64,000 nt of DNA from Acidisphaera sp. L21 (GTDB lineage: Bacteria > Pseudomonadota > Alphaproteobacteria > Acetobacterales > Acetobacteraceae): positions 34,021 through 98,020 of the forward strand of contig NZ_LMUY01000114.1 in assembly GCF_009765685.1 (NCBI RefSeq), written 5' to 3'. Of this stretch, positions 7,783-34,545 are shown piece by piece. The first letter of the stretch is position 1; the number at the start of each line of letters is the position of its first letter. The translations under genes and the position numbers were made by a program. The notes beneath the pieces were generated by a model, which was not told the DNA's origin, made no database searches, and was given only the letters and a program-made list of their open reading frames with translations.

Positions 7783-7796
7783 AAGGAGACAAATTA

Positions 7797-15984: not shown

Positions 15985-16024
15985 ATCGATCCTCCTCCAT
16001 TCTTCTTGTTAGTTTGAAGCTATG

Positions 16025-17170: not shown

Positions 17171-17173
17171 CGG

Positions 17174-18343: not shown

Positions 18344-18359
18344 GGCGCACTCACCTGGG

Positions 18360-20015
18360 TCATTGGATGGCGACGGTCTCGGCCCGAAGAACCCCCTCCG
18401 GGCCGTATTGGAACACGACGTGGCGTAGCCAATTCGAATTATCGGTCTTCGGGAAATCGACGCGTTGGTGCGCGCCGCGGCTTTCTTCCCGCTGCAGAGC
18501 AGACCCAACGATCGTGCGGGCCGTCAGCACCATGTGCATCGCCTCGACCGCCTCGATGGCGGTGCGGATATCCGTCACCTCCAGTCCGACGGTGATTTGG
18601 TCCTGCAAATCGAGCAGCGCTGTCGCGCCTTGCTGCAGTTGCTGCCCCGTGCGCCAGATCGGCGCTGCCTGTGATACGGTTCGACAAATTTCGCTCTTTG
18701 CCGCGATCGGCGATTTGCGACCCTGGCGCCCAATCGTGGCGAGGATCGGGTTCAGCGCCGACGCAACGGCCCTGCCCCGGTCCACCCCCGTGATGTCCCG
18801 CATGCCCCCGGCGGCGCCTCGCCCGGCAAGGCCACCGAACACCACGGTATCGCTGCATCCATTGCCTGCAATGCGACTTGCGCCATGCACGCCGCCTGCT
18901 GCCTCACCTGCCGCATAAAGGCCCGGCACGCCGGACCAGCCGTTCGCATCGATGTGAATGCCGCCCATCTGGCTATGCGCGGCCGGCCGCACGAGCGGTC
19001 CCTGAACGGCCGGGTCGAGGCCGGCCGATCGTAGGCGGCGGCAATGGGAGACATAGCTCTCCAGTCGCTCCCGCGGGACAGGCCTGGTGTCGAACAAGAC
19101 AGTGCCACCCGCCAAACCCCGGCCAGCATCAATCTCCTGCTGAATACAAAGCGCCATCCGCGCCTTCTCGATCTGGCGTTCCCCGTGACCGGGGTTATAG
19201 CGCAACATAAAGCGCTCGCCCTCTGCGTTGAGCAAATGCGCGCCATCGCCCAACATGGCAGTCGGCATTTCCATCCCTCGGCACGCCTCGGGCCAGACCG
19301 TCACGACCGGTTCGAACTGCACGAACTCCATGTCCACCAGCCGCGCGCCCGCCTCCAACGCCACGCCGTACGAGCCGGCGGATACATCTGCGGGATAGGT
19401 ACTGTCGTCATACAGGCGCCCGATGCCGCCAGCCGCAAGCACGGTGGATTTCGCATGCACTGCGCACAGGCGATTGCCCTGTTGGCGCCACAGCAGGGCC
19501 CCCACGACGGTGTCCCCGGCCTTCAACAGCCGCAGCGCCTTCCAGCCCGACATCACCGTGATGCCGATGCGGGATACCTCTTTGCCCAGCGCGTCCATGA
19601 TCGATCGGCCGGTACCGTCTGCCACATACACCGAACGGGCATAGGTGTTGCCGGACAAGTGGCGCAGGCTCGGCCGGTCATCGTCGCGCGCGAATGGGAC
19701 ACCCAGGCTGGCCAATTCGTCGAACGCCGCGATCGACTCCTCGACCATGGCACGGACGAGCCGCTGGTCGTTCAGGCCGTAACCGCCGCGGATCATGTCG
19801 GCAGCATATTCCTCCGGGCTGTCCTTCGGCTGCACCTGCATCGTCGGCACGTTGCAGCCGATGACGAAAGGTGAGGCGCCGCGGGCGACATAGGCCATCA
19901 ACACGTCGGCACCGCGCTGCCGCGCCGCGAGTGCTGCGCGATGGCCCGCGATGCCGCCACCGATGACGAGCACATCGGTCTGCACCGTCGCAATATCAGG
20001 AATGGCCGCCATCAT
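18360..20015 (-). CDS. FAD-dependent oxidoreductase, fumarate reductase/succinate dehydrogenase flavoprotein family
   Basis: 551 aa. The Rossmann FAD motif DVLVIGGGIAGHRAALAARQ is at the N-terminus, and the family segment AHSQMGGIHIDANGWSGVPG with GLYAAGEAAGGVHGASRIAGN lies near residues 355-395. The C-terminal helical domain typical of SdhA/NadB follows. No iron-sulfur or membrane-anchor subunit gene is adjacent, so it is probably a soluble oxidase or reductase of a dicarboxylate-like substrate rather than respiratory complex II. Two consecutive ATGs (20015, 20012) follow a GTG. I chose 20015; no clear ribosome-binding site decides it. It is the first gene of the minus-strand run. Confidence 0.87.
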   Translation of the reverse strand: MMAAIPDIATVQTDVLVIGGGIAGHRAALAARQRGADVLMAYVARGASPFVIGCNVPTMQVQPKDSPEEYAADMIRGGYGLNDQRLVRAMVEESIAAFDELASLGVPFARDDDRPSLRHLSGNTYARSVYVADGTGRSIMDALGKEVSRIGITVMSGWKALRLLKAGDTVVGALLWRQQGNRLCAVHAKSTVLAAGGIGRLYDDSTYPADVSAGSYGVALEAGARLVDMEFVQFEPVVTVWPEACRGMEMPTAMLGDGAHLLNAEGERFMLRYNPGHGERQIEKARMALCIQQEIDAGRGLAGGTVLFDTRPVPRERLESYVSHCRRLRSAGLDPAVQGPLVRPAAHSQMGGIHIDANGWSGVPGLYAAGEAAGGVHGASRIAGNGCSDTVVFGGLAGRGAAGGMRDITGVDRGRAVASALNPILATIGRQGRKSPIAAKSEICRTVSQAAPIWRTGQQLQQGATALLDLQDQITVGLEVTDIRTAIEAVEAMHMVLTARTIVGSALQREESRGAHQRVDFPKTDNSNWLRHVVFQYGPEGVLRAETVAIQ

Positions 20016-20162
20016 CACGGCGCCGATGACGGGGCAGTCCGCCCTCTGTGTTGTTGTACTCCCATGCTACCAGGGTAGGATTACGTTTCCGCCAGTAGCA
20101 AACGATAGAAACTTATGGTGTCATGAGTTTTCGGTCATCAAGAACCGATCGAAGGGAACGTC

Positions 20163-21086
20163 ATGTCGGCCAATCTGCCTTCGCTGTCCGCACTTCGAAC
20201 ATTCGAAGCGGCCGGCCGGCACATGAGCTTCACGCGCGCTGCACTCGAGATGCACATTACGCAAAGCGCCGTCAGCCGGCAGATCCGCGGGCTGGAGGAG
20301 ATGCTGGGCGCCACGTTGTTCAACCGCACCGGCCAGCGGGTAACGTTGACCGATGTGGGCCAAGGCTACCTTCGCGACATCAGCAGCGCGTTGGAGCGTA
20401 TCCAGGACTCGACCCTGCGCCTGCTGACCAAACATAGTGGCAGCATGCTGACGCTCGCAACGCCGCCTGCGTTTGGCATGCGTTGGCTCATCCCGCGGCT
20501 GCCGGCGTTTCACAAGCGACACCCCGAGATCATGGTGAGTCTGCTGACCCGGGCGAGCATCTTCGATTTCGCCAAGGAACCCGTCGATGCGGCCATCCAT
20601 TACGGCCACGACGACTGGCCCGGCGCCGAGACGGTACGCTTGCTAGGGGACACGATGACGCTGGTCGCGAGCCCAGACTATCTGGGGCAGCGCAAGCCGA
20701 TGAACCGCCCTGCCGATCTGCAAAATGCCGTCCTGCTACAGCACATGCGCCGGCCGACCGCATGGGCGGACTGGCTTGCCCACGCCCGCATGACCGGGAT
20801 CAACGCCTGGGCGGGTCCGCGCTTCGAACATTACTACATGTTGATCCAGGCGGCGCTTGCCGGGCTGGGCATTGCACTGATCCCCAGTATCATTGTCGCC
20901 GAGGAGCTCGGCTCCGGTCGCCTCGTGCAGCCGTTCAAGACTGGCTACATGGGCCAGGATTCGTATTGCCTGGTCTATCCAGAGACGAAACGCGCCGACC
21001 CAAACCTGCAGCGCCTGCGCCAATGGCTGGTCTCCGAGGCGAATGCTTGCCGTCAACCTTGTAGTTCCCATGATGCAGGGTCATGA
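20163..21086 (+). CDS. LysR-family transcriptional regulator (GcvA-like)
   Basis: 307 aa. The N-terminal winged helix covers residues 5-65 (LSALRTFEAAGRHMSFTRAA, then ITQSAVSRQIRGLEEMLGA). The C-terminal effector domain resembles the GcvA group (TPPAFGMRWLIPRLPAFHKRHPEI). It is divergent from the FAD oxidoreductase gene, with 147 nt between, and upstream of the MaoC and enoyl-CoA hydratase genes, so it most likely controls the whole CoA-dependent cluster. Its last codons, including the stop, lie inside a perfect 36-bp palindrome. Confidence 0.93.
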   Translation: MSANLPSLSALRTFEAAGRHMSFTRAALEMHITQSAVSRQIRGLEEMLGATLFNRTGQRVTLTDVGQGYLRDISSALERIQDSTLRLLTKHSGSMLTLATPPAFGMRWLIPRLPAFHKRHPEIMVSLLTRASIFDFAKEPVDAAIHYGHDDWPGAETVRLLGDTMTLVASPDYLGQRKPMNRPADLQNAVLLQHMRRPTAWADWLAHARMTGINAWAGPRFEHYYMLIQAALAGLGIALIPSIIVAEELGSGRLVQPFKTGYMGQDSYCLVYPETKRADPNLQRLRQWLVSEANACRQPCSSHDAGS

Positions 21087-21101
21087 CCCTGCATCATGGG
21101 A
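21066..21101. repeat. 36-bp perfect palindrome over the lysR stop codon
   Basis: Every base from 21066 to 21101 pairs with its partner. The centre is TCATGA at 21081-21086, which contains the TGA stop, and the arms begin TCCCATGATGCAGGG. No T-tract follows on either strand. It may form a cruciform or mRNA hairpin, or be a protein-binding site between lysR and the MaoC gene. Confidence 0.85.
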
Positions 21102-21189
21102 CATGAGATTGTACCATTTGCCAAGGTATCCACCGGCCTGCAGGGTAGCCTTGACGCCGCGGTAGCTTGCGGCCGGGAGGCGACAAGAA

Positions 21190-21621
21190 ATGGCAGAGTC
21201 GGGTGGGCGCGAGCCAGGCATAGGCGACGTCGTGATCGGCACCAGCGTACAGGTGGCCAAGACCATCACGGAATCAGATGTCTATCTTTATGCGGGGATC
21301 ACCGGTGATTTCTCCCCAAACCATGTCAATGCCGAGTTCATGAAGGATAGCCGCTACGGCGAACGCGTGGCTCACGGCGCGATGCTGGTTGGCTTCATGT
21401 CGGCCGCCTCCGCCAAGATGTATCTCGGACGCACGGTGTCGATGGGATATGACCGCGTCCGCTTCATGGCCCCGGTCCGCTTCGGCGACACGATCACGAC
21501 GCTATACCGTGTTGCGGCGGTTGACCTGGAAAAGCGCCGCGTTACGGCCGAAGTGACCTGCACCAACCAGGACGGCAAGCTCGTCGGGGTGGCGACCAAT
21601 ATCCGCGCCTTCATCGATTAG
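21190..21621 (+). CDS. MaoC-like (R)-specific enoyl-CoA hydratase
   Basis: Hot-dog-fold hydratase, 143 aa, the size of single-domain PhaJ-type enzymes. The catalytic motif is visible in DVYLYAGITGDFSPNHVNAEF (Asp and His of the hydratase 2 motif) and RVAHGAMLVGF. GGGAGG lies 9 nt before the ATG. It probably hydrates the enoyl-CoA made by the acyl-CoA dehydrogenase of the divergent operon. It is followed 8 nt later by an enoyl-CoA hydratase/isomerase gene. Confidence 0.92.
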   Translation: MAESGGREPGIGDVVIGTSVQVAKTITESDVYLYAGITGDFSPNHVNAEFMKDSRYGERVAHGAMLVGFMSAASAKMYLGRTVSMGYDRVRFMAPVRFGDTITTLYRVAAVDLEKRRVTAEVTCTNQDGKLVGVATNIRAFID

Positions 21622-21629
21622 GCATAGAC

Positions 21630-22397
21630 ATGTCCATCCTGCTGACTGAATCCCGCGACGCCGTGCTGACGCTGACGCTGAATCGGCCGGAATTTCGAAA
21701 CGCTCTGTCAGCGGAGTTGGCGCGCACGCTCGCCTCCGCGGTGACGAACGCTGGACACGAGGTACGCTGTGTCGTCGTGCGCGGCGCGCCAGGCGCCTTC
21801 TGCGCCGGGATGGACCTGAAAGAGCGTCGTACTCTGGATGCCGACGGAAAATGGGAACAGGCACAGTCGCTGCGGGACTTGACGGCAGCCATCATGGCAT
21901 CGCCCAAACCGGTGATCGCGGCGATTTCCGGCTGGTGCCTGGGCGGTGGTTTCGAACTGGCGTTGTCGTGCGATCTGCGCGTTGCCACCGCGGATGCGGC
22001 GTTTGGCTTTCCAGAGATGACGCTTGGTGCCTACCCCGGCGGCGGCGGCGCCGTTCTGGTCCCGCGGGTCGCTGGCATCGCAGCGGCAAAACGGCTGATG
22101 TTCGCCACCGACCGGATTGATGCTGCGGAGGCGCTTCGGCTCGGTCTGGTCGATTGGTGCGTTCCGGCAGCGGAATTGGAGGCGACGTTACAAACCATCG
22201 AGGGCGCCATCGCACGTCGTAGCCCCCTGGCGCTCGCGGCGTTGAAACGCGTCCTCGATCGGGTCAACGACCTGCCTTACCTCGATGCAGTGGCGTTCGA
22301 TGCCGCAGCACGCCGGCCACTCGAGGGCACTGCCGATTATCAGGAAGGCATCGCCGCCTTCTTCGAGCGTCGGCCCGCAGTATTCACTGGGACGTAA
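21630..22397 (+). CDS. Enoyl-CoA hydratase/isomerase (crotonase family)
   Basis: 255 aa, normal for the crotonase fold. The oxyanion-hole segments are RGAPGAFCAGMDLKERR near residue 55 and ISGWCLGGGFELALSCDLRV near residue 100. In the second catalytic segment (FGFPEMTLGAYPGGGGAVLVPR) one glutamate is present and the second acidic position is replaced by small residues, so isomerase or hydrolase chemistry is possible. Translationally close to the MaoC gene (8 nt). Likely part of the same CoA-ester pathway. Confidence 0.92.
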   Translation: MSILLTESRDAVLTLTLNRPEFRNALSAELARTLASAVTNAGHEVRCVVVRGAPGAFCAGMDLKERRTLDADGKWEQAQSLRDLTAAIMASPKPVIAAISGWCLGGGFELALSCDLRVATADAAFGFPEMTLGAYPGGGGAVLVPRVAGIAAAKRLMFATDRIDAAEALRLGLVDWCVPAAELEATLQTIEGAIARRSPLALAALKRVLDRVNDLPYLDAVAFDAAARRPLEGTADYQEGIAAFFERRPAVFTGT

Positions 22398-23303: not shown

Positions 23304-24611
23304 TCATTGTCCCCCGACAGCGAGGACCACTTTCGGGATTCCGGCTTCATGATCCGCCATGCGGTTGGCGCCACGTCCGTTCTTTTGTTCTTGGACCAGG
23401 ACCGCCAGCAAACCGGCACCCACGTAGAGCAGGCCGCCTATCAGCATGGCTCCGTGGAATCCCCCGGACGTGGTTCGCAGCCATCCGAACATCAAAGGCC
23501 CTAGAAAGCCACCGAAATTGCCGATGCCGTTGGCGACGGCCATGCTTGGCCCTGCGACACTTCTTGGCACGGCATCGGCTACCATGATCCAGTAAATCGT
23601 GATCCGACCAAACCACAGCCCCGTCGTCATGGTGAGACAGAACAGAAGCACCAACAGATGCCCTTCGCCGAACAGCGCGGCGCCGCACATGAACAGACCG
23701 GCCAGCACCGTCGGCACGATAAGGTGCCATCGCCGTTCCTGCATCCGATCCGAACTGGCCGAGATGAGGAACGCCATGCCCACGCTGACCACGTAGGGAA
23801 TCGAGGCGAGCACCCCCGCAAGGCCGATGGTGCGGCCGCCCTCCACCAGCAGCGTCGGCAGCCAGAAAGTCAGCCCCCAGAACGCCGTGAGGCCCAGCAA
23901 GTTGTAGATCGACAGGATGATGACAGTCGGGTTCCACATCGAGCGGAACCAATGCTGCTGCAGCACTGGGGCTCGCTGAGCTTCCGCATCCAGTTCCGTC
24001 ACCAGGGCCAGTTTGGTTGCCGGGTCCAACCATGCAGATTGCCGGGGATCGTCCTCGACGGCCCACCACCACACCGCGCACCACAGCAGCGAAGGGATCG
24101 CGGTGACAACGAACATCAGTCGCCATCCCACGTAACTGACGGCCAGCCCGCAGACCGCGTTGCCGATGGCTGCGGCGATGGGCGTGCCTAGCAAGGCAAG
24201 GTTGGCGCGCGCACGCTCCCGTTGGGTAAACCAGCCGCGCATCACCACTACGATGGCCGGCAGGATGCCACCCTCCGACATGCCGAGCATGAGACGGTTG
24301 ACGATCAGTTGGGTCTCCGTCTGCACCAGGGCCGTCGTCGCGGAGACGATCGACCAGCAGACTCCAAGCAGGATGATCGTACGCTTGGCGCTCCAAGCGG
24401 ATGTGAGCCTGCCGACCGGGATTTGCAGCGCGAGATAACCCCACGCAAACATGCCTACCGCGAAGCCTAGTTCCGTCGCGGTGAGCCCTAGATCGGCCCG
24501 CATGCCGGGAAAGGCAACGGCGATGTTCGACTTGTCGATCTGGGCGCAGATATAAAGGATGGTTGCGACGAGTTGTATGCGGATCCATCTGTTGCGAAGT
24601 AGGCTGGACAT
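23304..24611 (-). CDS. MFS transporter (anion:cation symporter-like)
   Basis: 435 aa with about twelve membrane helices. The N-terminus has IQLVATILYICAQIDKSNIA, and the motif GRLTSAWSAKRTI fits the MFS loop 2-3 signature. The profile resembles organic-anion carriers of the ACS group (GudP/ExuT/tartrate-like). It is the last gene of the minus-strand run aldolase-LeuC-LeuD-MFS and probably imports the hydroxy-acid substrate of that module. Substrate is inferred from context only. Confidence 0.87.
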   Translation of the reverse strand: MSSLLRNRWIRIQLVATILYICAQIDKSNIAVAFPGMRADLGLTATELGFAVGMFAWGYLALQIPVGRLTSAWSAKRTIILLGVCWSIVSATTALVQTETQLIVNRLMLGMSEGGILPAIVVVMRGWFTQRERARANLALLGTPIAAAIGNAVCGLAVSYVGWRLMFVVTAIPSLLWCAVWWWAVEDDPRQSAWLDPATKLALVTELDAEAQRAPVLQQHWFRSMWNPTVIILSIYNLLGLTAFWGLTFWLPTLLVEGGRTIGLAGVLASIPYVVSVGMAFLISASSDRMQERRWHLIVPTVLAGLFMCGAALFGEGHLLVLLFCLTMTTGLWFGRITIYWIMVADAVPRSVAGPSMAVANGIGNFGGFLGPLMFGWLRTTSGGFHGAMLIGGLLYVGAGLLAVLVQEQKNGRGANRMADHEAGIPKVVLAVGGQ

Positions 24612-24715
24612 GGGTTTCCTCCCATATTGCCGAGAGGGTCATTGGTTGCCCTCTCGTTCATCTGGTAGCCAAACTCGGAACTACGTCTTCGCCGGGCCGT
24701 TCCGAAGGACCCGAA

Positions 24716-25345
24716 TCAGGCTTGGCTGGTGATGGGCAGCCACGGGAACGCCATGCGCCGTTTTGCCTCGAAGGCGACGATCTCTGCCCCGTGGCTCTCC
24801 GTCACGCTGATATCGTCCTGGCCGAGGATCAGGCGCTCCTTGCGCAGCGGATTGATGTCAAAAGAATGTCGTGCGCCGGCCGGGTCGATAACGAGTTGGT
24901 TGGGCAGGTCGATTGTGATCTCGCTGCCCGGGCGGGCACGGACGGCAGCCCAAAGCTGGTGGATCACTGCTTCGTCGAGTGTCACGAGCAAGATGCCGTT
25001 TTGCAAGCAGTTGCCATAGAAGATCTCGGCAAAGCTGGGGCCGATCAGCGCGCGAAACCCGTAATCCATCACGGCATAGGCGGCCCCTTCGCGGGAGGAG
25101 CCGCAGCCAAAGTCGGCATCGGTCAACAGTATTTGGGGAGTGCCATAGGCGGCGTCGTTCAGCGCGCATTCGGGGCGGGGCTGCTCGTTCTCATCGAACC
25201 GGACGTCGTGCAGGAAGGCCTCGCTGTAGTCATGGCCTGGGCGACGATGCCGCCGCATGTAACGACCGGGCAGGATCATGCCGGTGTCGATCTTGGCGAT
25301 CGGCAGCGGCACCGCGGCGGCGGTCAGGATCGTGAAGGGTTGCAT
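24716..25345 (-). CDS. Aconitase-family small subunit (LeuD-like), module A
   Basis: 209 aa swivel domain of a two-subunit hydro-lyase. LTDADFGCGSSREGAAYAVM near residues 75-95 is the LeuD/aconitase domain 4 signature. The usual VDTDQIIP motif of isopropylmalate isomerase is changed to IDTGMILPGRYM, suggesting another substrate. It lies 9 nt downstream of the matching large subunit and upstream of an MFS gene. A role in leucine synthesis is unlikely, because leuA and leuB are absent and an aldolase begins the operon. Confidence 0.88.
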   Translation of the reverse strand: MQPFTILTAAAVPLPIAKIDTGMILPGRYMRRHRRPGHDYSEAFLHDVRFDENEQPRPECALNDAAYGTPQILLTDADFGCGSSREGAAYAVMDYGFRALIGPSFAEIFYGNCLQNGILLVTLDEAVIHQLWAAVRARPGSEITIDLPNQLVIDPAGARHSFDINPLRKERLILGQDDISVTESHGAEIVAFEAKRRMAFPWLPITSQA

Positions 25346-25354
25346 GGGATGTTC

Positions 25355-26773
25355 CTAAGGAGACGTCAGATGGCGTACGTCCGTCAAGCGGCCCATGATG
25401 GCTGCGGCAGCGACCATGGCCGGGCTCATGATGTGCGTCATCGCATTACGACCCTGCCGCCCCTCGAAGTTGCGATTGGTGGTTGAGGCGCAGCGCTGGC
25501 CCGGACCGACGATCTCTCCGTTGGAGCCGTTGCACATTGCGCAGCCGGAATCCCGCCACTCCAGGCCAGACTCAAGGAAGATGCGGTGCAGACCCTCCGC
25601 CTCCGCCTGGCGCTTCACCTCGCTGGACCCAGCGGACACCATCCCCGGCACCGCCACCTTGCGCCCCCGCAACACGCCGGCCGCGGCGCGCAGATCCTCG
25701 ATGCGGCTGTTGGTGCAGGACCCGATGAACACGCGGTCGATCCGGATCTCGGATAAGGGTGTCGCCGGGATCAACTGCATATACTCCAACGCACGGCCGA
25801 CATGGCGGCTGCGCTCGTGGTCGTCAAAGCTGCTGGGATCCGGCACCACCCCATCGATCGGGGAACAATCCTCCGGGCTGGTGCCCCACGTCACCATTGG
25901 CGCGACCGTGGCTGCGTCCAGATGAAGCTCGCGATCGAAGACGGCGCCGGGATCTGTCGGCAATGTCCGCCAATAGGCCAAGGCGCGGTCCCAGTGTTCG
26001 CCCTTCGGCGCGCGTTCGCATTGCGCCAGATGGGCAAACGTGATGTCGTCCGGCGCGATCATGCCGATGCGTGCGCCCGCCTCGATCGACATATTGCAGA
26101 TCGTCAAGCGCCCTTCCATCGACATGCCGCGGATCGTCGATCCGGCATATTCGAACGCGTAGCCGGCACCGCCGCCAATTCCGGTCTGCCGAATAATCGA
26201 TAGGATCACATCCTTGGCGGTGACGCCCGTTCCAAGGGCGCCGTCGATGGTGATGCGCATGGTCCGCGGTCGCTTCATCCAGACGGTCTGCGTGGCGACG
26301 ACGTGGCGCAACTGGTTCGATGCGCCGACGGGAATGGCGCAGGCCCCCATTGCACCATGTGTCGCGGTGTGGGAATCGTTGCAGGTGATCAGCATGCCGG
26401 GCTGCGAGATGCCCAGTTCCGGCCCTACCACATGAGCAATACCTTGCTTGGCGTGATGCATGTTCAAATGGGGCAGGCCGAAATCTGCAGCGTTGCCCGC
26501 CATCATGGCGACGACGTTGCGAATTTCGGGGTTTGGAATGCCCTCTACCCCCGCCGCGCGATTGATGGTCGGCAGGTAATGGTCGGTGATGGCCAGGTGC
26601 TGTTCCGGCCGGCGACTGGTGCGGCCTTCCAGCCGCAATTGGTCGAACGCGAGGAAGGAGCCACCTTCGTTGAGGTAGTTGAAATCGACGTAGAGCAAGT
26701 CCTCGCCTTGGGGCGACGTGACGATGATGTGCTCACCCCACACTTTCTCGAACAGCGTCCTTGCGCTCAGCAT
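25355..26773 (-). CDS. Aconitase-family large subunit (LeuC-like), module A
   Basis: 472 aa from the ATG at 26773, which has GGAGGG 10 nt upstream; another ATG at 26797 overlaps the aldolase stop. It binds a [4Fe-4S] cluster through Cys353 (FIGSCTNSRIEDLR) and Cys411/Cys414 (SGCAMCNGSNGE). The last motif differs from the CSMCLxMNPD of leucine-pathway enzymes. Together with the small subunit it should add or remove water across a C-C double bond in a di- or tricarboxylate. Downstream of an HpcH/HpaI aldolase gene, so the hydratase product may be the aldolase substrate. Confidence 0.9.
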   Translation of the reverse strand: MLSARTLFEKVWGEHIIVTSPQGEDLLYVDFNYLNEGGSFLAFDQLRLEGRTSRRPEQHLAITDHYLPTINRAAGVEGIPNPEIRNVVAMMAGNAADFGLPHLNMHHAKQGIAHVVGPELGISQPGMLITCNDSHTATHGAMGACAIPVGASNQLRHVVATQTVWMKRPRTMRITIDGALGTGVTAKDVILSIIRQTGIGGGAGYAFEYAGSTIRGMSMEGRLTICNMSIEAGARIGMIAPDDITFAHLAQCERAPKGEHWDRALAYWRTLPTDPGAVFDRELHLDAATVAPMVTWGTSPEDCSPIDGVVPDPSSFDDHERSRHVGRALEYMQLIPATPLSEIRIDRVFIGSCTNSRIEDLRAAAGVLRGRKVAVPGMVSAGSSEVKRQAEAEGLHRIFLESGLEWRDSGCAMCNGSNGEIVGPGQRCASTTNRNFEGRQGRNAMTHIMSPAMVAAAAIMGRLTDVRHLTSP

Positions 26774-26796
26774 CGTATCAATTCCCTCCATGTGCA

Positions 26797-27567
26797 TTAG
26801 CCGGCGCGGGCTGCCGCGAGTGACCGCTTTGCCTGGCCCAATAGCAGCGGCAAGTCACCGCCGACCGAGATGAAGCTGCATCCTCTGGCCAGCCACCCGG
26901 CGGCGAGCGACGGCTCGCCAGTGGACATGCCGACGATCTTGCCCGCGCGCAGGATGGTGGCCACGGCGTCTTCGATGGCGGCAACGACTTCCGGATGCTC
27001 GGTCTGTCCGAAATGGCCCATGTCTGCTGCCAAATCTGCCGGGCCGAACAGCAGCGCATCGATGCCATCGACGGCAGCGATCTCGGCGACATTCCTGATT
27101 GCCGTGCGCGACTCGATTTGCACGATCAGGCAGATGCGGTCTTCGCCTCGCGTGGGGCCAAGATCGAGATTGTCGTAGCGGTTGCCTCGGTGAAACCGGG
27201 CGGCACTGCGCAGGCCACGTGGTGGATACAATGCGGCGGATGCGACCCGCTGGGCCTGCGCCGCCGTTTCGACCATGGGGACGACTAGCGTCTCGATACC
27301 GATGTCCAGCAACCCCTGGATCACCGCCGGGTCATCGCTCGGCAGTCGCACCACGGCGCTGGCACCCGTGCCTGCCAAGGCCTGCGCCTGGTGTAGAACC
27401 GACATCAGGCTGTTCGGCGAGTGCTCCATATCGATGTAGACATAGTCGCAGCCCGCGTATCCGAGCGCCTCAGCCACGATCGGACTGCAGAATTGCGTGC
27501 GGATGCCGATTTGCGGTTGTCTGTCTGACAGCTTCTGCTTGAACGATGGCGTGTCAGTGGCGACCAT
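26797..27567 (-). CDS. HpcH/HpaI family class II aldolase
   Basis: 256 aa, typical of metal-dependent aldolases that split 2-keto-4-hydroxy acids or related compounds, usually releasing pyruvate. Key residues: His49 in YIDMEHSPNS, Arg74 in VVRLPS, metal ligands Glu152 in VQIESRTAIRNV and Asp178 in GPADLAADMG. It is the first gene of the minus-strand module A operon, divergent from a LysR gene with a palindromic site between. The pairing with LeuCD-like subunits suggests hydration followed by retro-aldol cleavage. Confidence 0.93.
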   Translation of the reverse strand: MVATDTPSFKQKLSDRQPQIGIRTQFCSPIVAEALGYAGCDYVYIDMEHSPNSLMSVLHQAQALAGTGASAVVRLPSDDPAVIQGLLDIGIETLVVPMVETAAQAQRVASAALYPPRGLRSAARFHRGNRYDNLDLGPTRGEDRICLIVQIESRTAIRNVAEIAAVDGIDALLFGPADLAADMGHFGQTEHPEVVAAIEDAVATILRAGKIVGMSTGEPSLAAGWLARGCSFISVGGDLPLLLGQAKRSLAAARAG

Positions 27568-27606
27568 GTCACAGATTCTCCCCGGTTACTAAACGGTTGC
27601 CAGCGC

Positions 27607-27625
27607 GCTTATACAAATTATAAGC
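27607..27625. promoter_or_regulatory. Candidate LysR operator in divergent promoter
   Basis: GCTTATA and TATAAGC are perfect inverted arms separated by CAAAT, and the site contains a T-N11-A pattern as expected for LysR boxes. It lies 40 nt before the aldolase start on one side and 61 nt before the lysR start on the other. An AT-rich island in GC-rich DNA. Confidence 0.75.
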
Positions 27626-27686
27626 TGCGTCGATTGAAGCGCAAGCTTTTCGTGCGATGCTGCGGACGGCCCCCCATGGAAGGTGC

Positions 27687-28739
27687 ATGACGACGATACG
27701 ACACGATCTCCGAGACGAACCGGCCGAGCCGCTCAACGCCCGCAGCCTCATCGGGCAAGGCCTGTCGGCCCGTGCGTTGGAGGTGTTCGTGGCAGTCGCG
27801 CGCACGGGCAGCATGAGCGCGGCAGCTCAGCATCTGGGTTTGACGCAACCGGCGGTGTCGCAATTCATCGGGCAGATGGAGCGCGCGCTGGACGTCCAAT
27901 TATTCGACCGGTCGCGCCGGCCGCCCGTGCTCACGTTGAAGGGCGCCGCCTTGCTGGAGCCCGCGCGGGCGCTGGTGAATGGCATCGAGCGGTTTGACAA
28001 TGCGCTGCGGTGGAGCACGAGCGAGCAGTTGCCGCTGCTGCGGATCGGCATGCTGAACAGCTTTGCGGAGGCGATCGGCCCCGCCGTGCTGTCGCGACTG
28101 CGTTCGATGGCAGCGCAGCTCACCGTTGAATCCGGTTTCAACGCCACCCGGGCCCGGGCGGTCGCGGACCGCGAGTTCGACTTCGTCGTGACATCCGACG
28201 AATCGCCCCCGCTACCCGGCGTGACGATCGTGCCGATCATGACCGAGCCGTTCCTGATCGTGGCGCCCCCGGATTATGCTGAGAATCCACAAGCCCTGAA
28301 GCCATTGAGCGAGACGCTGGACCTCATCCGCTTCGGGCGCGATCCTTTTATGAATTCACGGTTCGACCAGACGCTACGCTCCTGGGGTATCACGCCCCGG
28401 CGGCGCTATCACATGGATACGCATGCTGCCGTGCTGGCAATGGTGGCGGCGGGTTTTGGCTGGACGATCATGCCGCCCCTCGCCGTCTATCGCGCCATCG
28501 CCCGCGGCGAACGGTTTGCGATTGCGCCCTATCCAGACCCGTCGATGAAGCGGGTGATGATGATTGCCGCGCGCGATGGCGAGGGCGCACACGTGGTGCG
28601 CCATATTCACGAGGCGGCAACGCTAGAACTGCGATCCAGCGTGATCCCAGTCATTCGAACGCATTTGCCTGAGGTCGCCCACCTGATGACACTGCACGAG
28701 CTGGCAGAGGAGGAGCCGGGCTCGTCTGCTGCATCCTAA
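27687..28739 (+). CDS. LysR-family transcriptional regulator, module A
   Basis: 350 aa from the ATG at 27687 (GGAAGG 5 nt upstream); the frame is open from 27657. The winged helix spans residues about 25-85 (SARALEVFVAVARTGSMSAA, TQPAVSQFIGQMERALDVQL), followed by the two-lobed effector domain. A C-terminal extension of about 30 residues is richer in acidic residues. It is divergent from the aldolase-LeuCD-MFS operon and most likely its activator, binding the inverted repeat at 27607-27625. Confidence 0.92.
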   Translation: MTTIRHDLRDEPAEPLNARSLIGQGLSARALEVFVAVARTGSMSAAAQHLGLTQPAVSQFIGQMERALDVQLFDRSRRPPVLTLKGAALLEPARALVNGIERFDNALRWSTSEQLPLLRIGMLNSFAEAIGPAVLSRLRSMAAQLTVESGFNATRARAVADREFDFVVTSDESPPLPGVTIVPIMTEPFLIVAPPDYAENPQALKPLSETLDLIRFGRDPFMNSRFDQTLRSWGITPRRRYHMDTHAAVLAMVAAGFGWTIMPPLAVYRAIARGERFAIAPYPDPSMKRVMMIAARDGEGAHVVRHIHEAATLELRSSVIPVIRTHLPEVAHLMTLHELAEEEPGSSAAS

Positions 28740-29073
28740 CTGCGAGGATGGTTAGCAGCATGTTCACACGTCGGCGGCGATGTCGTGCGGGTTGACCTTC
28801 GGCATTGAGCGGTGACGGAGTTCCCGCTCACGCAGGTCAACGAAGGCATAACGCATGCAGCCGCCGAGGCGGGGCCGTTCAAGCTGACGGTGCTCAAACC
28901 CTAGCGATCTGCACGGATCGACATTCATCATTGTAAATCGCGCGTGACGGGCTGAACCAGCGTGGCCCGGCGCTCTTACAACCAGCGAGGGGCCAAGCTC
29001 TCTCATTCGAAACTCGGGGCTGCGATCAAAATGGTCGTGCCCCGTCTTGCATCGAAATACGGACGTGCCGCGT
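28740..29073. other. Intergenic region after the module A lysR gene
   Basis: 334 nt without a convincing gene. An imperfect inverted repeat at about 28729-28759 (TGCTGCATCCTAAC against GGTTAGCAGCA) begins at the lysR stop and could be its terminator. A short minus-strand frame at 28764-29006 has no recognisable domain or ribosome-binding site. The segment may be decayed DNA preceding the small gene at 29074. Confidence 0.35.
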
Positions 29074-29331
29074 ATGACAATTCACACTGATGCTGCTGGC
29101 CACACGCTCGGCGCCCGGATTCATCCGGAAACCCATCAGGTTCTACATCGTGACGTGCGCCAGCAGGTCTTCAAGGCCGACGATGGTGTCGTGGTCGTGG
29201 CTGATTTGCCGGGCTGGTATCCCGAGGCTGATGGAGAACCGATCCTGACGGCCGATGACGAGAAGATCCGGGTTCGCGCCGTAGCGGCGCTGAATGCTCT
29301 ACAACGGGGTTTTTCTCCCGCTTCTCCATAA
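29074..29331 (+). CDS. Small protein resembling the N-terminal part of MqsA-like HTH antitoxins
   Basis: 85 aa from the ATG at 29074 (an upstream TTG is in frame). The pattern RIHPETHQVLHRDVRQ, then VVVVADLPGWYPEADGEPIL, resembles the N-terminal region I recall from MqsA/YgiT-type antitoxin-regulators of Alphaproteobacteria, which normally continue into a helix-turn-helix for another 60 residues. Here the protein stops after RAVAALNALQRGFSP, so the DNA-binding half seems to be missing. No toxin-like gene lies beside it. It may be a truncated, non-functional remnant. Family assignment is tentative. Confidence 0.4.
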   Translation: MTIHTDAAGHTLGARIHPETHQVLHRDVRQQVFKADDGVVVVADLPGWYPEADGEPILTADDEKIRVRAVAALNALQRGFSPASP

Positions 29332-29362
29332 AGCGATCGCCATCGATGATGGGCTGGCGTTC

Positions 29363-30697
29363 TCACCTGGTGGCGCTGAGCCGATCAGCTTTCGGGGTCA
29401 CGATGCTGGTGTGGCCGAGATGCAGCGGAAGAAAGCGCAAGTACCAGGCAAGGCCTAATGCAAGCACGCCACCCAGCACCTCCTGCCAGACTGGCACGGA
29501 GAGCCCGAAACTGCGGACCAGCCACGCAACGACGAGCGGCGTCAGGCCCGAGACCACGGCCGTACCCACGCTGTAGGGAAATGCGAAGCCGCTTTGGCGG
29601 ATTGCGGTGGGAAACAGTGCGCAGGTCAGGCCCGAGATCAGCGAATGGATCACCCCGCATAGCGCTCCCACGATCGCCAGCCCGGCCGCGAGGCCCGCAG
29701 CGCTACCCTGCAGCGTTGGCAGTTCGGAGAAGAACCAAGTTGCAGACGCAGCATTGAGCACCCCACCGATGACAAGCAATCGCGGCCATCCCAGCAATGG
29801 GAGCATCGCACCCCAGGCGGGCATGCTCAACACGAAGGCCGCGACGCCACACATATTGGCGACGAAGACCGTGTTGGCCGGGACGTGCTGGATGCCGATG
29901 AGGTAGGTTGGTAGCCACTGAAAGTAGATGCCCGGCGTGGTGGAGAAAACGAACGTCAACACGACGGCGAACACGCATTGTGCGCGACAATCACGCAGGA
30001 TCTTGGCGATCGGCACCTGCGTCGACAGCTGCCGTTCCTCCCGGATTTGCTCGAACATCGGCGATTCTGCCAAATGGCGGCGCAGATAGGCGGCCAGCAG
30101 CCCGGACAAGCCGCCGAGGATGAATGGTAACCGCCACGCCAATGACACCCAGCCCGGGTCCAGCAGACCCGCAAATTCCTTCGCCAGGAGTGCCACCCCC
30201 GCACCCAGCAGCAAACCGCAATTCACCATGCCCAGGAACAAGCCACTGGCAGGACCCAGGCGGCGGGGCGGGGCGTGTTCGCAGATGAACACGGCTGCAC
30301 CGGGCAGCTCGCCACCCACCGCACATCCCTGCAGAATGCGCAACAGCAGCAATGCGGCTGGCGCCATCCAGCCGGCCGTCGCGTAGGTTGGCAGCAAGCC
30401 CATGAGGAAGGTCGGGAACGACATGAGCAACACGGTGAACACGAAAAGCCGCTTGCGTCCGATCCGGTCGGCATAATGCGCGATGATCATGCCGGCGATC
30501 GGGCGAACCAGGTAGCCGATGGCGAAGATACCAAAAGCCTGGACCTGGGTCTTCCACACGGAATCACCCGGTGGAAACAGATCGGTGCCAAGAGCGGCGG
30601 CGACGAAAACATAGACCTGGAAATCGAAATATTCCAGCATGCCGCCCAACGATGCCAAGCCGACGTTTTGTAGTTCCTTGATACCTTGACGGTTCAT
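29363..30697 (-). CDS. MFS transporter, metabolite:H+ symporter type, module B
   Basis: 444 aa with about twelve membrane helices. GGMLEYFDFQVYVFVAAALG, then RPIAGMIIAHYADRIGRKR and LLLLRILQGCAVGGELPGA, match the MHS group (KgtP, ProP, citrate and shikimate carriers). It is the last gene of the minus-strand run LeuC-LeuD-lyase-MFS and probably imports the carboxylate used by that module. Proton-coupled transport is inferred from family. Confidence 0.9.
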   Translation of the reverse strand: MNRQGIKELQNVGLASLGGMLEYFDFQVYVFVAAALGTDLFPPGDSVWKTQVQAFGIFAIGYLVRPIAGMIIAHYADRIGRKRLFVFTVLLMSFPTFLMGLLPTYATAGWMAPAALLLLRILQGCAVGGELPGAAVFICEHAPPRRLGPASGLFLGMVNCGLLLGAGVALLAKEFAGLLDPGWVSLAWRLPFILGGLSGLLAAYLRRHLAESPMFEQIREERQLSTQVPIAKILRDCRAQCVFAVVLTFVFSTTPGIYFQWLPTYLIGIQHVPANTVFVANMCGVAAFVLSMPAWGAMLPLLGWPRLLVIGGVLNAASATWFFSELPTLQGSAAGLAAGLAIVGALCGVIHSLISGLTCALFPTAIRQSGFAFPYSVGTAVVSGLTPLVVAWLVRSFGLSVPVWQEVLGGVLALGLAWYLRFLPLHLGHTSIVTPKADRLSATR

Positions 30698-30748
30698 GGC
30701 TCTCCCTTTCTGCCGCCGACTCTTGCGGTCGCGGTCGCCTCGTTGACG

Positions 30749-31630
30749 TCAGCCTGGCTGTAGGGTCCAGCGATCCTCATCGGCTTGCACGCCGGGTAGA
30801 TCGGTCACTTCGTTGTAGTGCGCCATTGGCATCAAGACCGACGCGACCCCCGCCAGTGAGCGGTCTCGGTGCAGGGCCTGCAACACGTGCTGCATCGCGG
30901 CTGCGGCGGCCAGCAAGGCAGCGATGGGAAACATGACGGCTGCGGCACCCGCTGCCTGCGCCGTATCAACGGTTAAATTCGTGGCGCCGGCCGCCTGGGA
31001 TACGTTGGCCAAATGGAAACCCGGGATTGCCTTGCAGACACGCGCCAGCGTCTCCGGCGTGTCGGCGCCCTGCACGAACACCATGTCCACCCCTTCCTGC
31101 TGATAGCGGCCAGCACGGTCTATCGCGGCGTCGATGCCCTCGACAGCCAAGGCGTCCGTGCGGGCACACAGCACGAAGGCCGGGTCGCGTCGCGCATCCA
31201 AGGCCGCGCGCAGCTTGGCGATCTGGTCGGCGACGGGAATGACGGCCTTGCCAGCCAGATAGCCGCAGCGTTTCGGCGTTACTTGGTCTTCGATGAACAG
31301 GCCGGCCAATCCAGCGCGCTCGAACGATCGAACGGTCTGCGCGACGTTGTGAACGCCGCCAAACCCGGTATCGGCATCCGCCAGGACCGGCACGCCAGAC
31401 GCGGCGGCGATCCGCGCATAGTGGTCGGCAAAGTCGCGCATGCCAAGCTGGCCCATATCCGGCGCCCCCAACAACGTGCCGGTCGCAGCATTGCCGCCCG
31501 ATGCCAGCGCGTCGAACCCCGTGCGGGTGGCAAGGCGGGCGGATAGGGCGTCGTGCACCCCTGGCAGCACCAGGATTTCGGGCTGGCCAAGCAATTCACG
31601 CAATCTGGATCCGGGATGGATGGGCGTCAT
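30749..31630 (-). CDS. Isocitrate lyase/PEP mutase superfamily lyase (PrpB/dimethylmalate-lyase-like)
   Basis: 293 aa TIM-barrel enzyme. Metal-binding DADTGFGG at residues 85-92 and the active-site loop PKRCGYLAGK (Cys122) are diagnostic of lyases such as 2-methylisocitrate lyase, which cleave a 3-hydroxy-dicarboxylate into pyruvate or glyoxylate plus an acid. The start overlaps the LeuD stop by 4 nt, so the isomerase and lyase are translationally coupled. In nicotinate-fermenting Eubacterium barkeri an aconitase-type dimethylmaleate hydratase hands its product to a lyase of this family; the same order of steps is inferred here. No methylcitrate synthase is present. Confidence 0.9.
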   Translation of the reverse strand: MTPIHPGSRLRELLGQPEILVLPGVHDALSARLATRTGFDALASGGNAATGTLLGAPDMGQLGMRDFADHYARIAAASGVPVLADADTGFGGVHNVAQTVRSFERAGLAGLFIEDQVTPKRCGYLAGKAVIPVADQIAKLRAALDARRDPAFVLCARTDALAVEGIDAAIDRAGRYQQEGVDMVFVQGADTPETLARVCKAIPGFHLANVSQAAGATNLTVDTAQAAGAAAVMFPIAALLAAAAAMQHVLQALHRDRSLAGVASVLMPMAHYNEVTDLPGVQADEDRWTLQPG

Positions 31631-32232
31631 AGCGGCGTCCTTAGTGTCTGGAGCCAGGGTTGGCCGGCTTTTTCCGCGGATTCCCAGCGATCTATCGCTG
31701 TGGCCTCGAGTAAGGTCATGCCTATTTCATCGAGTCCTTCCAGCAGTGCCGTCTTATCTGCAGCCGGCAAGTCGAATGCCATCTCGAACCCTGGGGACGT
31801 GACACGCTGCGTCGCCAGGTCCACCAGCAGGTGCACCGGGTCCTGGGTGTCGCGCAGCATACTGCGCAGACGTGCAAGGCCTTCCGCACCGGCGGCGATC
31901 GGCAGGATGCCGTTGCGGATGCAATTGTCTCGGAAAACCTCGCCGAAGCTGGCGGCGATCAGCACGCGGATACCGAATTCGTCCAGAGCCCAACAAGCGT
32001 GCTCCCGCGTGCTGCCACAGCCGAAATTGGCGCCGGACACCAGGATCGCGGTCTTCTCCCACCCTGGGCGATTCAGCACGAAGGCCGGGTCGCGCCGCCA
32101 CAATGCGAACAGGCCGGCGCCGTAGTCTGGGTCGATGCCGCGCATGAAGGCGGCGGGTAGCACTTGGTCGGTATCGATGTTGTCGCGGTCCAGCAGCGTC
32201 GCAACCGACTCTACGGGTTGAAAACGGCGCAT
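31627..32232 (-). CDS. Aconitase-family small subunit (LeuD-like), module B
   Basis: 201 aa. NIDTDQVLPAAFM near residue 20 and GANFGCGSTREHACWALDEF near residue 75 are LeuD signatures. The ATG at 32232 shares one base with the LeuC stop; the frame is open a little further upstream but inside LeuC. The downstream overlap with the lyase gene (ATGA) makes LeuC-LeuD-lyase one coupled unit. It is more leucine-pathway-like in sequence than the module A copy, but its neighbours argue for a catabolic substrate. Confidence 0.9.
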   Translation of the reverse strand: MRRFQPVESVATLLDRDNIDTDQVLPAAFMRGIDPDYGAGLFALWRRDPAFVLNRPGWEKTAILVSGANFGCGSTREHACWALDEFGIRVLIAASFGEVFRDNCIRNGILPIAAGAEGLARLRSMLRDTQDPVHLLVDLATQRVTSPGFEMAFDLPAADKTALLEGLDEIGMTLLEATAIDRWESAEKAGQPWLQTLRTPL

Positions 32233-33626
32233 CACTGCACCGCCCGGCGGTCGACGATGCACCCGGCCAGTGCGGCGGCGGCGGCTGTCTCCGGGCTTGC
32301 AAGATGCGTCATCACACCCGCGCCCTGCCGGCCCGCGAAGTTACGGTTGGTGGTGGATACGATCCGCTGGCCCGGCGATCCCTCCTCACCATTGACGCCG
32401 GCGCACATGGAACAGCCGGCCTCCCCCCAATCGAACCCGGCATCGAGGAAGATTTGGTGCAACCCGAGGTTCTCCGCCTCCCGCTTCACCATCGTGCTGC
32501 CGGGCACCACCGTCGCGTGCATCCCGGGTGCCACGTGCCGACCCCGCACCACGGCCGCGGCGGCCTGCAGGTCGGACAGGCGGGCATTGGTGCATGATCC
32601 GATGAAGACCCGGTCCACCGGCACGCCCGCAATCGGCGCACCCGGCTGCAACTGCATGTAGTCTAGCGCCCGGCGCAATTCCGCCCGTTCCGCGACGGGC
32701 GCGGTCTCAGGGTTTGGCACTGTGCCGGACAACCCGATGACATGCGCGGGATCAATGCCCCAGGTGATCTGCGGCTCCAACGTACCGCAATCGATGCAGA
32801 GGTCCTGGTCGAAGACTGCGTCCGCGTCGGTATACAGCGCCTTCCAAGCCTGGACCGCCTGGCCCCAGTCTGTGCCCTGTGGGGCGAACGCACGACCCTT
32901 CAACCAGGCTGCGACGCTTGCATCCGGCGCCACCAGACCGGCCCGGCCGCCAAGTTCGGTCACCATGTTGCAGAGCGTCATGCGGCCTTCCACGGGCAGG
33001 GCGCGGGCCACCGGCCCGGCGAATTCGACAGCATGGCCACGCGCCATGTCCGAGCCCCAATGGCCGATCACGAACAGGATCACATCCTTCGCCGTCACGT
33101 CCGGGGCGAGCCCGCCATCCAGCACGATGCGCATCTGCCGGGGCTTGTTCCAGGCCAGCGTCTGGGTGGCCAGCACATGCACCACCTCCGTCGTGCCGGT
33201 GGCCAGGCCCAGTGCGCCGATGCCGCCCACTGTGCAGGCATGACTGTCCGGGCAGGCTACGGTACTGCCGGGCAGCGCGATGGCCAATTCCGGCGAGATG
33301 ACGTGAACGATACCCTGCATGGGGCTGTCGATCCCTAGCAGGCGGATGCCGAATTCCAATGCGCCACTCCGGGTCCGTTCCAGGAAGGGCGCGCTTTTCG
33401 GGATCGTGCTGGTCGTCCGCCCCGTGCTGGTGGCGACCATGTGGTCGGTCACCGCGACCGTCAGGTCTGGCCGGCGCACGTCGCGGCCGGTCTTGCGCAG
33501 CTTGGCAAAGGCGGGCGGCGCATGGAGGTCATGGATCACGTGGCGGTCGATATAGACCAGGGTGCGACCGTCCTGGCGGGGGCCGACCACGTGCGCATCC
33601 CAGATCTTATCGAATAGTGTTGCCAT
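32232..33626 (-). CDS. Aconitase-family large subunit (LeuC-like), module B
   Basis: 464 aa, the normal LeuC length. [4Fe-4S] ligands are Cys345 (FIGSCTNARLSDL), Cys405 and Cys408 (AGCSMCAGVNGEEGSP). TLFDKIWDAHVV at the start and STTNRNFAGRQG near the C-terminus are family marks. The CSMCAGVNGE motif differs from that of isopropylmalate isomerase. It is the first gene of the module B operon, divergent from a FadR-type GntR regulator, and the shared promoter holds an operator-like repeat. It is probably a hydratase/isomerase of a substituted malate. Confidence 0.92.
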   Translation of the reverse strand: MATLFDKIWDAHVVGPRQDGRTLVYIDRHVIHDLHAPPAFAKLRKTGRDVRRPDLTVAVTDHMVATSTGRTTSTIPKSAPFLERTRSGALEFGIRLLGIDSPMQGIVHVISPELAIALPGSTVACPDSHACTVGGIGALGLATGTTEVVHVLATQTLAWNKPRQMRIVLDGGLAPDVTAKDVILFVIGHWGSDMARGHAVEFAGPVARALPVEGRMTLCNMVTELGGRAGLVAPDASVAAWLKGRAFAPQGTDWGQAVQAWKALYTDADAVFDQDLCIDCGTLEPQITWGIDPAHVIGLSGTVPNPETAPVAERAELRRALDYMQLQPGAPIAGVPVDRVFIGSCTNARLSDLQAAAAVVRGRHVAPGMHATVVPGSTMVKREAENLGLHQIFLDAGFDWGEAGCSMCAGVNGEEGSPGQRIVSTTNRNFAGRQGAGVMTHLASPETAAAAALAGCIVDRRAVQ

Positions 33627-33679
33627 CCCGGCTCTCTGACGTTGGTCGTTCCTTGACGGCCAGCGTCGGGCCGTTGTGG

Positions 33680-33697
33680 TCGATTGTCAACAATCGA
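33680..33697. promoter_or_regulatory. Candidate GntR/FadR-family operator
   Basis: TCGATTGT and ACAATCGA are perfect 8-bp arms around CA. The core TTGT-CA-ACAA resembles sites known for FadR-type regulators (TNGT-N-ACNA). It is 54 nt from the module B leuC start and 69 nt from the gntR start, the expected place for autoregulated divergent control. Confidence 0.75.
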
Positions 33698-33765
33698 CGA
33701 TTAAATTGCCCGATAGGCTTTGTCGTGGCATGATCCGGCTACAGCATGACAAGGGCGATCATTTG

Positions 33766-34545
33766 ATGGGGGTCGAGCGCATTCAGGTGCAGACGCTGGC
33801 CGATCGTGCCTTCGACATGCTGGAACGCGCGATCCTCAATGGCGACTTGGCGCCCGGCGCCACGCTGGGCGAGGCCGATCTGGCCGGGCAACTCGGCATC
33901 AGCCGGGGTCCGCTGCGGGAGGCCATCAGCCGTTTGGAGGGCCGCCGCCTGCTGCAGCGTGTGCCGCATGTGGGCGTCCGCGTAGTGTGCCTGTCCGATG
34001 CGGAAGTGGCCGAGATCTTCGCCATGCGTGAGGTGCTTGAGGGTCTCGCCGCAAGCCTTGCCGCCCAATACATGACAGGGCGCGACATCGACATGCTGGA
34101 GGAAGCCGCGCCATTTCGGCACCGGGCACCGGGCAGACATGGCGGCCAGCGTCACGATCCCACAGAGGATTTCCACGTTCGCATCGCTCAGGGGAGCCGC
34201 AATAGCCGGCTCATCGAGTATCTGTGCATCGATATGTATTCGCTCCTGCAACTCTACCGCATTCGCAGTGGCAGCAGCCCCATGCGTGCGGGTTCGGCCG
34301 AGGAGCATCGCGAGATCGTGGCCGCCTTGCGGGCCCGTGACGGCGTGACGGCAGAGCGACTCATGCGCGCCCATGTTCGCCGGGCAAAGGACAGCCTGAA
34401 CCTTGCGTCGATCGGCGCAAGTGCTTCGATAGTCGCCGCAGATGACAATGGTGCCGGATCGAAGGCCGTTGGGGAGCATCGGGCCAGTGGTCCCGAACTG
34501 TCCCTGGATCGCCGCCGGCGCATCGCGATGACGACGAGTGCCTGA
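33766..34545 (+). CDS. GntR-family regulator, FadR subfamily (FCD domain), module B
   Basis: 259 aa from the ATG at 33766; the frame is open from a GTG at 33676 that lies within the promoter region. The winged helix covers residues about 5-75 (ADRAFDMLERAILNGDLAPG, then ISRGPLREAISRLEGRRLL). An FCD helical ligand domain follows, with the metal-binding pattern visible as TEDFHVRIAQGSRN and later EEHREIVAALRARD. The C-terminal 45 residues (after SLNLASIGA) look non-homologous and low in complexity, perhaps an extension into former intergenic DNA. It probably represses the LeuCD-lyase-MFS operon. Confidence 0.92.
   Translation: MGVERIQVQTLADRAFDMLERAILNGDLAPGATLGEADLAGQLGISRGPLREAISRLEGRRLLQRVPHVGVRVVCLSDAEVAEIFAMREVLEGLAASLAAQYMTGRDIDMLEEAAPFRHRAPGRHGGQRHDPTEDFHVRIAQGSRNSRLIEYLCIDMYSLLQLYRIRSGSSPMRAGSAEEHREIVAALRARDGVTAERLMRAHVRRAKDSLNLASIGASASIVAADDNGAGSKAVGEHRASGPELSLDRRRRIAMTTSA

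Follow-up and report, generated by a model that had tools for sequence, protein, structure and literature searches.

The catabolic use of aconitase-family hydratases in partnership with a carbon-carbon lyase is best known from Eubacterium barkeri, where the hydratase DmdAB is followed by a dimethylmalate lyase of the isocitrate lyase/phosphoenolpyruvate mutase (ICL/PEPM) superfamily. HbzIJ, a LeuCD-type heterodimer of the aconitase superfamily, was reportedly described by Liu, Xu and Zhou in 2015 as the maleate hydratase of a direct-hydrolysis route for gentisate, and it is an example of a LeuCD-type heterodimer acting as a hydratase in catabolism. The 2015 study is cited in PMC12294151. In biosynthesis, pantaphos clusters pair the PEP mutase HvrA with the LeuCD-like proteins HvrDE (PMC7858074). 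Here we describe two gene modules in 64,000 nucleotides of Acidisphaera sp. L21 (the window; C85:34021-98020 of an alphaproteobacterial draft genome of 6.38 Mb and 162 contigs), in each of which a LeuC-LeuD pair stands beside a gene from a family of C-C bond-cleaving enzymes. It is likely that both modules are catabolic cassettes of LeuCD plus C-C cleavage, as the comparison of their sequences suggests.

By analogy with HbzIJ, the window pairs are LeuCD-type heterodimers that may act as catabolic hydratases; we know of no C-C lyase partner of HbzIJ, unlike the window modules. Module B resembles the E. barkeri system in joining an aconitase-family hydratase to an ICL/PEPM-superfamily protein, and the aldolase of module A aligns over its full length with the 4-hydroxy-2-oxoheptanedioate aldolase HpaI/HpcH. 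Operons of LeuCD with HpaI or of LeuCD with PEPM in a catabolic setting were not found described in our search of the open-access literature, which is no proof of their absence.

The LeuCD pairs and the leucine pathway

Module A reads, on the reverse strand, HpaI-type class II pyruvate aldolase (HpaI_A, 26797-27567), LeuC_A (25355-26797), LeuD_A (24716-25345) and a major facilitator superfamily (MFS) carrier (23304-24611), with a divergent LysR gene on the forward strand (27657-28739). Module B reads, again on the reverse strand, LeuC_B (32232-33626), LeuD_B (31627-32232), the ICL/PEPM-superfamily lyase-like protein PEPM_B (30749-31630) and an MHS-family metabolite:H+ symporter (29363-30697), with a divergent FadR-type GntR gene on the forward strand (33766-34545). 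This gene and domain content, proposed in an earlier note made from the sequence alone, was confirmed for all ten genes, coordinates included apart from two start sites, the named families scoring well over their Pfam cut-offs. Stop and start codons overlap by one base (TGATG) between HpaI_A and LeuC_A and between LeuC_B and LeuD_B, and LeuD_B and PEPM_B overlap by four bases. The LeuD_B reading frame is open from 32262, and its start is most likely 32232, within the TGATG. Such tight packing indicates operons with translational coupling.

Both large subunits are [4Fe-4S] proteins by their sequence, with all three cluster cysteines retained (GSCTN and GCAMC in LeuC_A), and the small subunits, both of the long bacterial type, retain GCGS[S/T]RE, as expected of LeuCD-type hydro-lyases in general. 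LeuD_A has GCGSSREG and an unusual substrate-loop region, IDTGMILPGRYMRRHRRPGHDY, that is common to its relatives; LeuD_B has GCGSTREH, with a serine-to-threonine change that it shares with its Roseomonas relative. The general models recognize all four subunits (PRK12466, 654 bits for LeuC_A and 634 for LeuC_B; PRK01641, 205 bits for LeuD_A and 196 for LeuD_B). The two LeuC proteins are 44.7% identical and are therefore not the product of a recent duplication.

Against the leucine-pathway model TIGR00170 (cut-off 560 bits), LeuC_A scores about 587 bits, just over, and LeuC_B 537.5, under. We surveyed 57 alphaproteobacterial genomes, of which 43 encode LeuC. Each of the 43 has exactly one LeuC at 744-829 bits, and extra copies reach at most 704 bits; LeuC_A and LeuC_B (about 586 and 537 bits in this survey) lie below every biosynthetic LeuC. 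The earlier note had read CAMCNGSNGE and CSMCAGVNGE as departures from the leucine-pathway form. Both motifs were verified, and in the same alignment biosynthetic rows nearly always have CSMCL[AG]MN(A/P)D, second copies mostly CSMC..xNG(D/E).

The window genome encodes six intact LeuC proteins and one broken copy. A complete housekeeping set, leuC-leuD-leuB, adjoins an rplS-like gene on contig C55. As the earlier note had stated, neither leuA nor leuB lies in or beside either module; the leuB genes are on other contigs, and leuA is in two parts, each at a contig end (C161 and C16). In a maximum likelihood tree, midpoint rooted and therefore giving no direction of descent, the C55 and Escherichia coli LeuC proteins fall in one biosynthetic clade of 23 rows (support 96/80). 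LeuC_B is in a separate clade of 14 rows (100/100), many of them PEPM-partnered, and LeuC_A, beside three HpaI-linked relatives (100/100), is in a clade whose copies are linked to transport or hydrolase genes (86/91). Forcing LeuC_B among the biosynthetic rows was rejected by the approximately unbiased (AU) test (p = 0.006). Placement of both pairs inside the leucine isomerases with leuA or leuB nearby, which the earlier note had named as the outcome that would count against it, did not occur; the separation from leucine LeuC appears firm for LeuC_B and moderate for LeuC_A.

A proposed scheme for the two modules

In the scheme that we favor, the carrier of each module would import a dicarboxylate-type acid, and the LeuCD-type [4Fe-4S] hydro-lyase, of the bacterial isopropylmalate isomerase family, would hydrate or isomerize it. 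The C-C bond-cleaving enzyme would then split the LeuCD product into central metabolites, and the divergent regulator would control expression, probably through a palindrome between the divergent genes. In module B, a substituted maleate would likely be converted to a 3-substituted malate and then, by an ICL/PEPM-superfamily lyase of unusual subtype, to a 2-oxo acid (glyoxylate or pyruvate) and a carboxylate. In module A, the LeuCD product would most likely be a 4-hydroxy-2-oxo acid, which the HpaI-type aldolase would cleave to pyruvate and an aldehyde or oxo acid. We infer the direction of the reactions, the substrates, the products and the regulation from the genes and their partnerships. 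The proposal that these are separate, catabolic-looking modules with cleaving enzymes from two unrelated families, each with its own importer and regulator, and not parts of the leucine pathway, is supported.

Several observations weigh against the scheme. In the catalytic loop of PEPM_B, EDQVTPKRCGYL, the lyase signature K[KR]CGH reads KRCGY, with the cysteine retained and the histidine replaced by tyrosine, and glutamine stands at the position of PrpB Glu188, where nearly all aligned lyases have glutamate. Two PEPM-family partners in other LeuCD operons, those of Mesorhizobium and Terrarubrum, are without the catalytic cysteine. The AU test did not reject LeuC_A among the biosynthetic rows (p = 0.095). 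The carriers and regulators of both modules are under every specific family cut-off and therefore give no hint of substrate, and the candidate LysR operator of module A is weak alone (p = 0.047). The roles of the PrpB active-site residues, Glu188 among them, and the catalytic roles of the retained HpaI residues are presumed ones.

The probable cleaving enzyme of module B

PEPM_B is a member of the ICL/PEPM superfamily (PF13714, 159 bits), and its nearest solved relatives are methylisocitrate lyases, PrpB (1mum, 171 bits). It differs from PrpB in its score against the prpB model TIGR02317 (234 bits, cut-off 354) and in the histidine-to-tyrosine and glutamate-to-glutamine changes, both of which are retained in its Roseomonas relative. 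Because of these changes lyase activity is not assured, and "lyase" is a best guess; on balance we lean toward PEPM_B being a true C-C lyase. Wherever the CGH loop is changed among the aligned PEPM-family rows, the LeuC of the same locus is in the LeuC_B clade. A single-sequence structure prediction of PEPM_B had a mean predicted local distance difference test score of 38.6 and was not used. PEPM-superfamily proteins that have lost the catalytic cysteine loop are encoded in LeuCD operons at L132 10027-10905 and L187 8053-8931 of our comparison loci.

The earlier note had module B follow the dimethylmaleate hydratase and 2,3-dimethylmalate lyase steps of E. barkeri nicotinate fermentation, and a citraconate/3-methylmalate version of that route can also be envisaged. 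The same two reaction types would stand side by side in module B, and the relatives of PEPM_B include the solved 2,3-dimethylmalate lyase 3fa3 (148 bits), yet behind PrpB. However, both small subunits miss the cut-off (109 bits) of the LeuD/DmdB model TIGR02087, LeuD_A with 58 bits and LeuD_B with 69, PEPM_B departs from the classic lyase signature at the two positions given above, and no further gene of nicotinate fermentation was noticed among those window genes that were examined. Membership of this route is therefore unlikely, as judged by model scores and sequence motifs. The E. barkeri pair is a fair functional analogy for module B rather than a family assignment.

The aldolase of module A

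Aligned to E. coli HpaI (4b5s), HpaI_A retains the D-x-E-H, R, Q-x-E and GPADLxxD residues. It differs from HpaI/HpcH in its score (244 bits, against the TIGR02311 equivalog cut-off of 369), in its LeuCD partner and in the acceptor-side segment, where RGVGSALARASRW of E. coli HpaI is replaced by RSAARFHRGNRY, one residue shorter. The most fitting reading of HpaI_A is a pyruvate aldolase that takes a new acceptor. Since the active-site residues are retained, its substrate is most likely a 4-hydroxy-2-oxo acid, cleaved to pyruvate, and we slightly favor a pyruvate aldol as the product of LeuCD_A. The suggestion that module A is a similar route to module B with a different lyase is consequently unlikely in detail: a pyruvate-aldolase site calls for a 4-hydroxy-2-oxo acid and not a 3-alkylmalate, and the chemistry of module A most likely differs from that of module B.

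A second pyruvate-aldolase family is found beside a sister LeuCD at locus L168, where an RraA-type aldolase scores 177.8 bits against the 4-carboxy-4-hydroxy-2-oxoadipate (CHA) aldolase model (cut-off 179), and this points the same way as the pyruvate-aldolase reading of HpaI_A. The L168 genes (3674-8924, genome G015) form a tight run of 2-hydroxyacid dehydrogenase, RraA-type aldolase, Ldh_2 dehydrogenase, LeuC and LeuD, a third cleavage solution beside LeuCD.

The near-threshold CHA score also bears on an alternative in which LeuCD_A is a 4-oxalomesaconate hydratase and HpaI_A cleaves CHA to pyruvate and oxaloacetate. The oxalomesaconate skeleton is of the aconitate/alkylmaleate type and, chemically, would suit a LeuCD enzyme, and the retained HpaI residues accord with this chemistry. 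The window genome, however, lacks a LigB-type dioxygenase and already has, on contig C79, a LigK-family CHA aldolase over the model cut-off beside a PIG-L-type (GalB-like) protein, so that an oxalomesaconate route in module A would be redundant and would lack a supply from aromatic compounds. Moreover, the acceptors of HpaI-type enzymes are normally aldehydes. We regard this alternative as improbable. The C79 locus (L200) additionally encodes a sulfomuconolactone-hydrolase-like amidohydrolase, a sugar-acid-dehydratase-like enolase-superfamily protein and an HpaX-like carrier.

Recurrence of LeuCD with putative cleaving enzymes

The module A trio is rare. It was found in Burkholderia sp. Ax-1724, Rhizobium mayense and a Rhizobiaceae metagenome-assembled genome, with identities of 72-74% for LeuC, 66-67% for LeuD and 51-54% for HpaI, and no LeuC_A orthologue was detected in 250 genomes of the order or in 399 of the phylum. 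These relatives have an Fe-dependent alcohol dehydrogenase gene upstream of the aldolase and, on contigs that extend far enough, an SsuABC-type transporter after the trio. A plasmid of Bradyrhizobium guangxiense encodes an HpaI-family protein (31% identity to HpaI_A) beside a LeuC of the B clade, by the tree a second, independent pairing. The module B operon has an orthologue on plasmid p546-2 of Roseomonas haemaphysalidis (LeuC 73%, LeuD 55%, PEPM 66%), with a divergent GntR at 33% identity and different, TctC-type transport parts; it accounts for the only LeuC_B orthologue in the 250 genomes of the order (1/250).

LeuCD near or beside a PEPM-superfamily gene is more widespread, in Azospirillum, Variovorax, Mesorhizobium, Terrarubrum, Skermanella, Sulfitobacter, Arthrobacter and other genomes, and on contig C4 of the window genome. 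The pairing is plasmid-borne in Skermanella, Terrarubrum, Mesorhizobium, Azospirillum, Variovorax, Arthrobacter and Roseomonas. In the 57-genome survey, 4 of the 11 extra LeuC genes, against 0 of the 37 biosynthetic ones, have a PEPM gene no more than 1.5 kb away (Fisher p = 0.0017). Other LeuCD partners are LeuB with an ABC transporter, a CoA-transferase with an HMG-CoA-lyase-like protein, and the Ldh_2, RraA-type aldolase and 2-hydroxyacid dehydrogenase set of L168.

This recurrence bears on the view that both pairs are spare isopropylmalate isomerases of the leucine pathway and the cleaving enzymes unrelated neighbors. Family models do name both pairs LeuC/LeuD, LeuC_A being marginally over the TIGR00170 cut-off, and the AU test leaves a place for LeuC_A among biosynthetic rows. 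Nevertheless, the genome has its complete leuCDB on C55, the window pairs are unlike biosynthetic copies in scores, tree position and partner genes, their genes overlap with those of the cleaving enzymes, and the pairings are conserved in other genera; this explanation is very unlikely. A place for module B in a pantaphos-like cluster for phosphonate biosynthesis, as the HvrA-HvrDE pairing might suggest, is rejected on the PEPM_B loop, EDQVTPKRCGY rather than the PEP mutase motif EDKxxxxxNS, and on a score of 117 bits against the PEP mutase model TIGR02320 (cut-off 320), and no phosphonomethylmalate synthase-like ORF was noted near the module.

Returning to catabolic LeuCD cassettes, it is a fair possibility, though somewhat less likely than not, that bacterial LeuCD has been repeatedly recruited as a general "prepare for cleavage" step to which at least five types of enzyme can be coupled interchangeably (PEPM-family lyase, HpaI aldolase, RraA aldolase, CoA-transferase plus HMG-CoA-lyase type, and LeuB). 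Module A would then be an undescribed LeuCD/pyruvate-aldolase route and module B a lyase subtype with a reworked loop (KRCGY, glutamate to glutamine) acting on a new substituted malate. Such genes carry leucine-biosynthesis names in public annotation, those of Roseomonas, Skermanella and Mesorhizobium among them. If the cassette reading is true, many "leuCD" genes would encode catabolic hydratases for organic acids, the neighboring enzyme telling which bond is cut; a sequence rule (LeuC score, CSMC motif, partner gene) would separate biosynthetic from catabolic LeuCD; and concrete, testable pathways would follow from modules A and B.

Several further LeuCD loci were observed. The leuC-leuD-leuB sets on contigs C97, C83 and C96 (leuC broken in C96; SsuABC-like transporters with C97 and C83) are probably catabolic modules of LeuCD plus a LeuB-type decarboxylating dehydrogenase. 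Like the window modules, the C97 and C83 sets and those on Caballeronia and Paraburkholderia plasmids are extra LeuCD copies in transport-linked operons; unlike them, they have the dehydrogenase as partner and no lyase. A plasmid run in Arthrobacter (pLDW-10; L136 6837-10810) holds leuB, leuC, leuD and a PEPM-family gene and would therefore bring two alternative fates of the LeuCD product together. Contig C4 carries a LeuC-LeuD-PEPM(KRCGH)-isochorismatase operon (L015 8462-11962), and the related operons of Azospirillum ramasamyi (L126), Sulfitobacter (L131) and genome G107 (L124) also encode hydantoinase A/B and an FAD oxidoreductase, which suggests cyclic amide or imide breakdown. A maleamate amidase reading of the isochorismatase was not adopted: its best solved matches are RutB/YecD-type or isochorismatase-family proteins, with 3ot4 and 3uao, the latter of which we take to be maleamate amidase, at only 22 bits. 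Plasmid pJE1 of Sphingomonas sp. JE1 (L188 1185-8015) encodes LeuCD, two polysaccharide-deacetylase-family proteins, an isochorismatase, an HMG-CoA-lyase-like protein and a CoA transferase, an arrangement reminiscent of imide hydrolysis.

Candidate operators, carriers and neighboring genes

The gap between LeuC_B and GntR holds a 20-bp palindrome, GTCGATTGT-CA-ACAATCGAC (33679-33698; core GATTGTNNACAATC; p = 0.006 by mononucleotide shuffles), and the Roseomonas module has ACAGATTGT-AG-ACAATCTGT at the equivalent position. The core common to both modules, GATTGTnnACAATC, has a single occurrence in the window genome, and in a set of 192 loci it was confined to copies of these two modules. We regard this as good evidence for a dedicated GntR operator, predicted as GTCGATTGTCAACAATCGAC. 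An exact-operator search of the window genome for further regulon members returned this single occurrence, and therefore no further GntR target. The GntR frame (PF00392 and PF07729) is open from 33676, and ATG 33766 is most likely the start rather than GTG 33676, since the latter would place the palindrome within the gene. Between the divergent genes of module A lies the LysR-like candidate operator GCTTATACAAATTATAAGC (27607-27625; GCTTATA-CAAAT-TATAAGC; shuffles p about 0.047), and the LysR protein has PF00126 and PF03466. The module A carrier is of the ACS/galactonate-HpaX type family (PF07690, 167 bits; TIGR00893, 207 bits, cut-off 395), and the MHS symporter of module B scores 270 bits against TIGR00883 (cut-off 443).

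Beside module A, window positions 14926-22397 encode an ABC solute-binding protein, an acyl-CoA dehydrogenase, a CoA-transferase III, an FAD fumarate-reductase-like flavoprotein, a LysR regulator, a MaoC protein and an enoyl-CoA hydratase, which together look like another acid-degradation cluster. The same catabolic neighborhood includes an NtaA/DmoA-type FMN monooxygenase (7797-9134) and an MmgE/PrpD-family protein (9511-10905).

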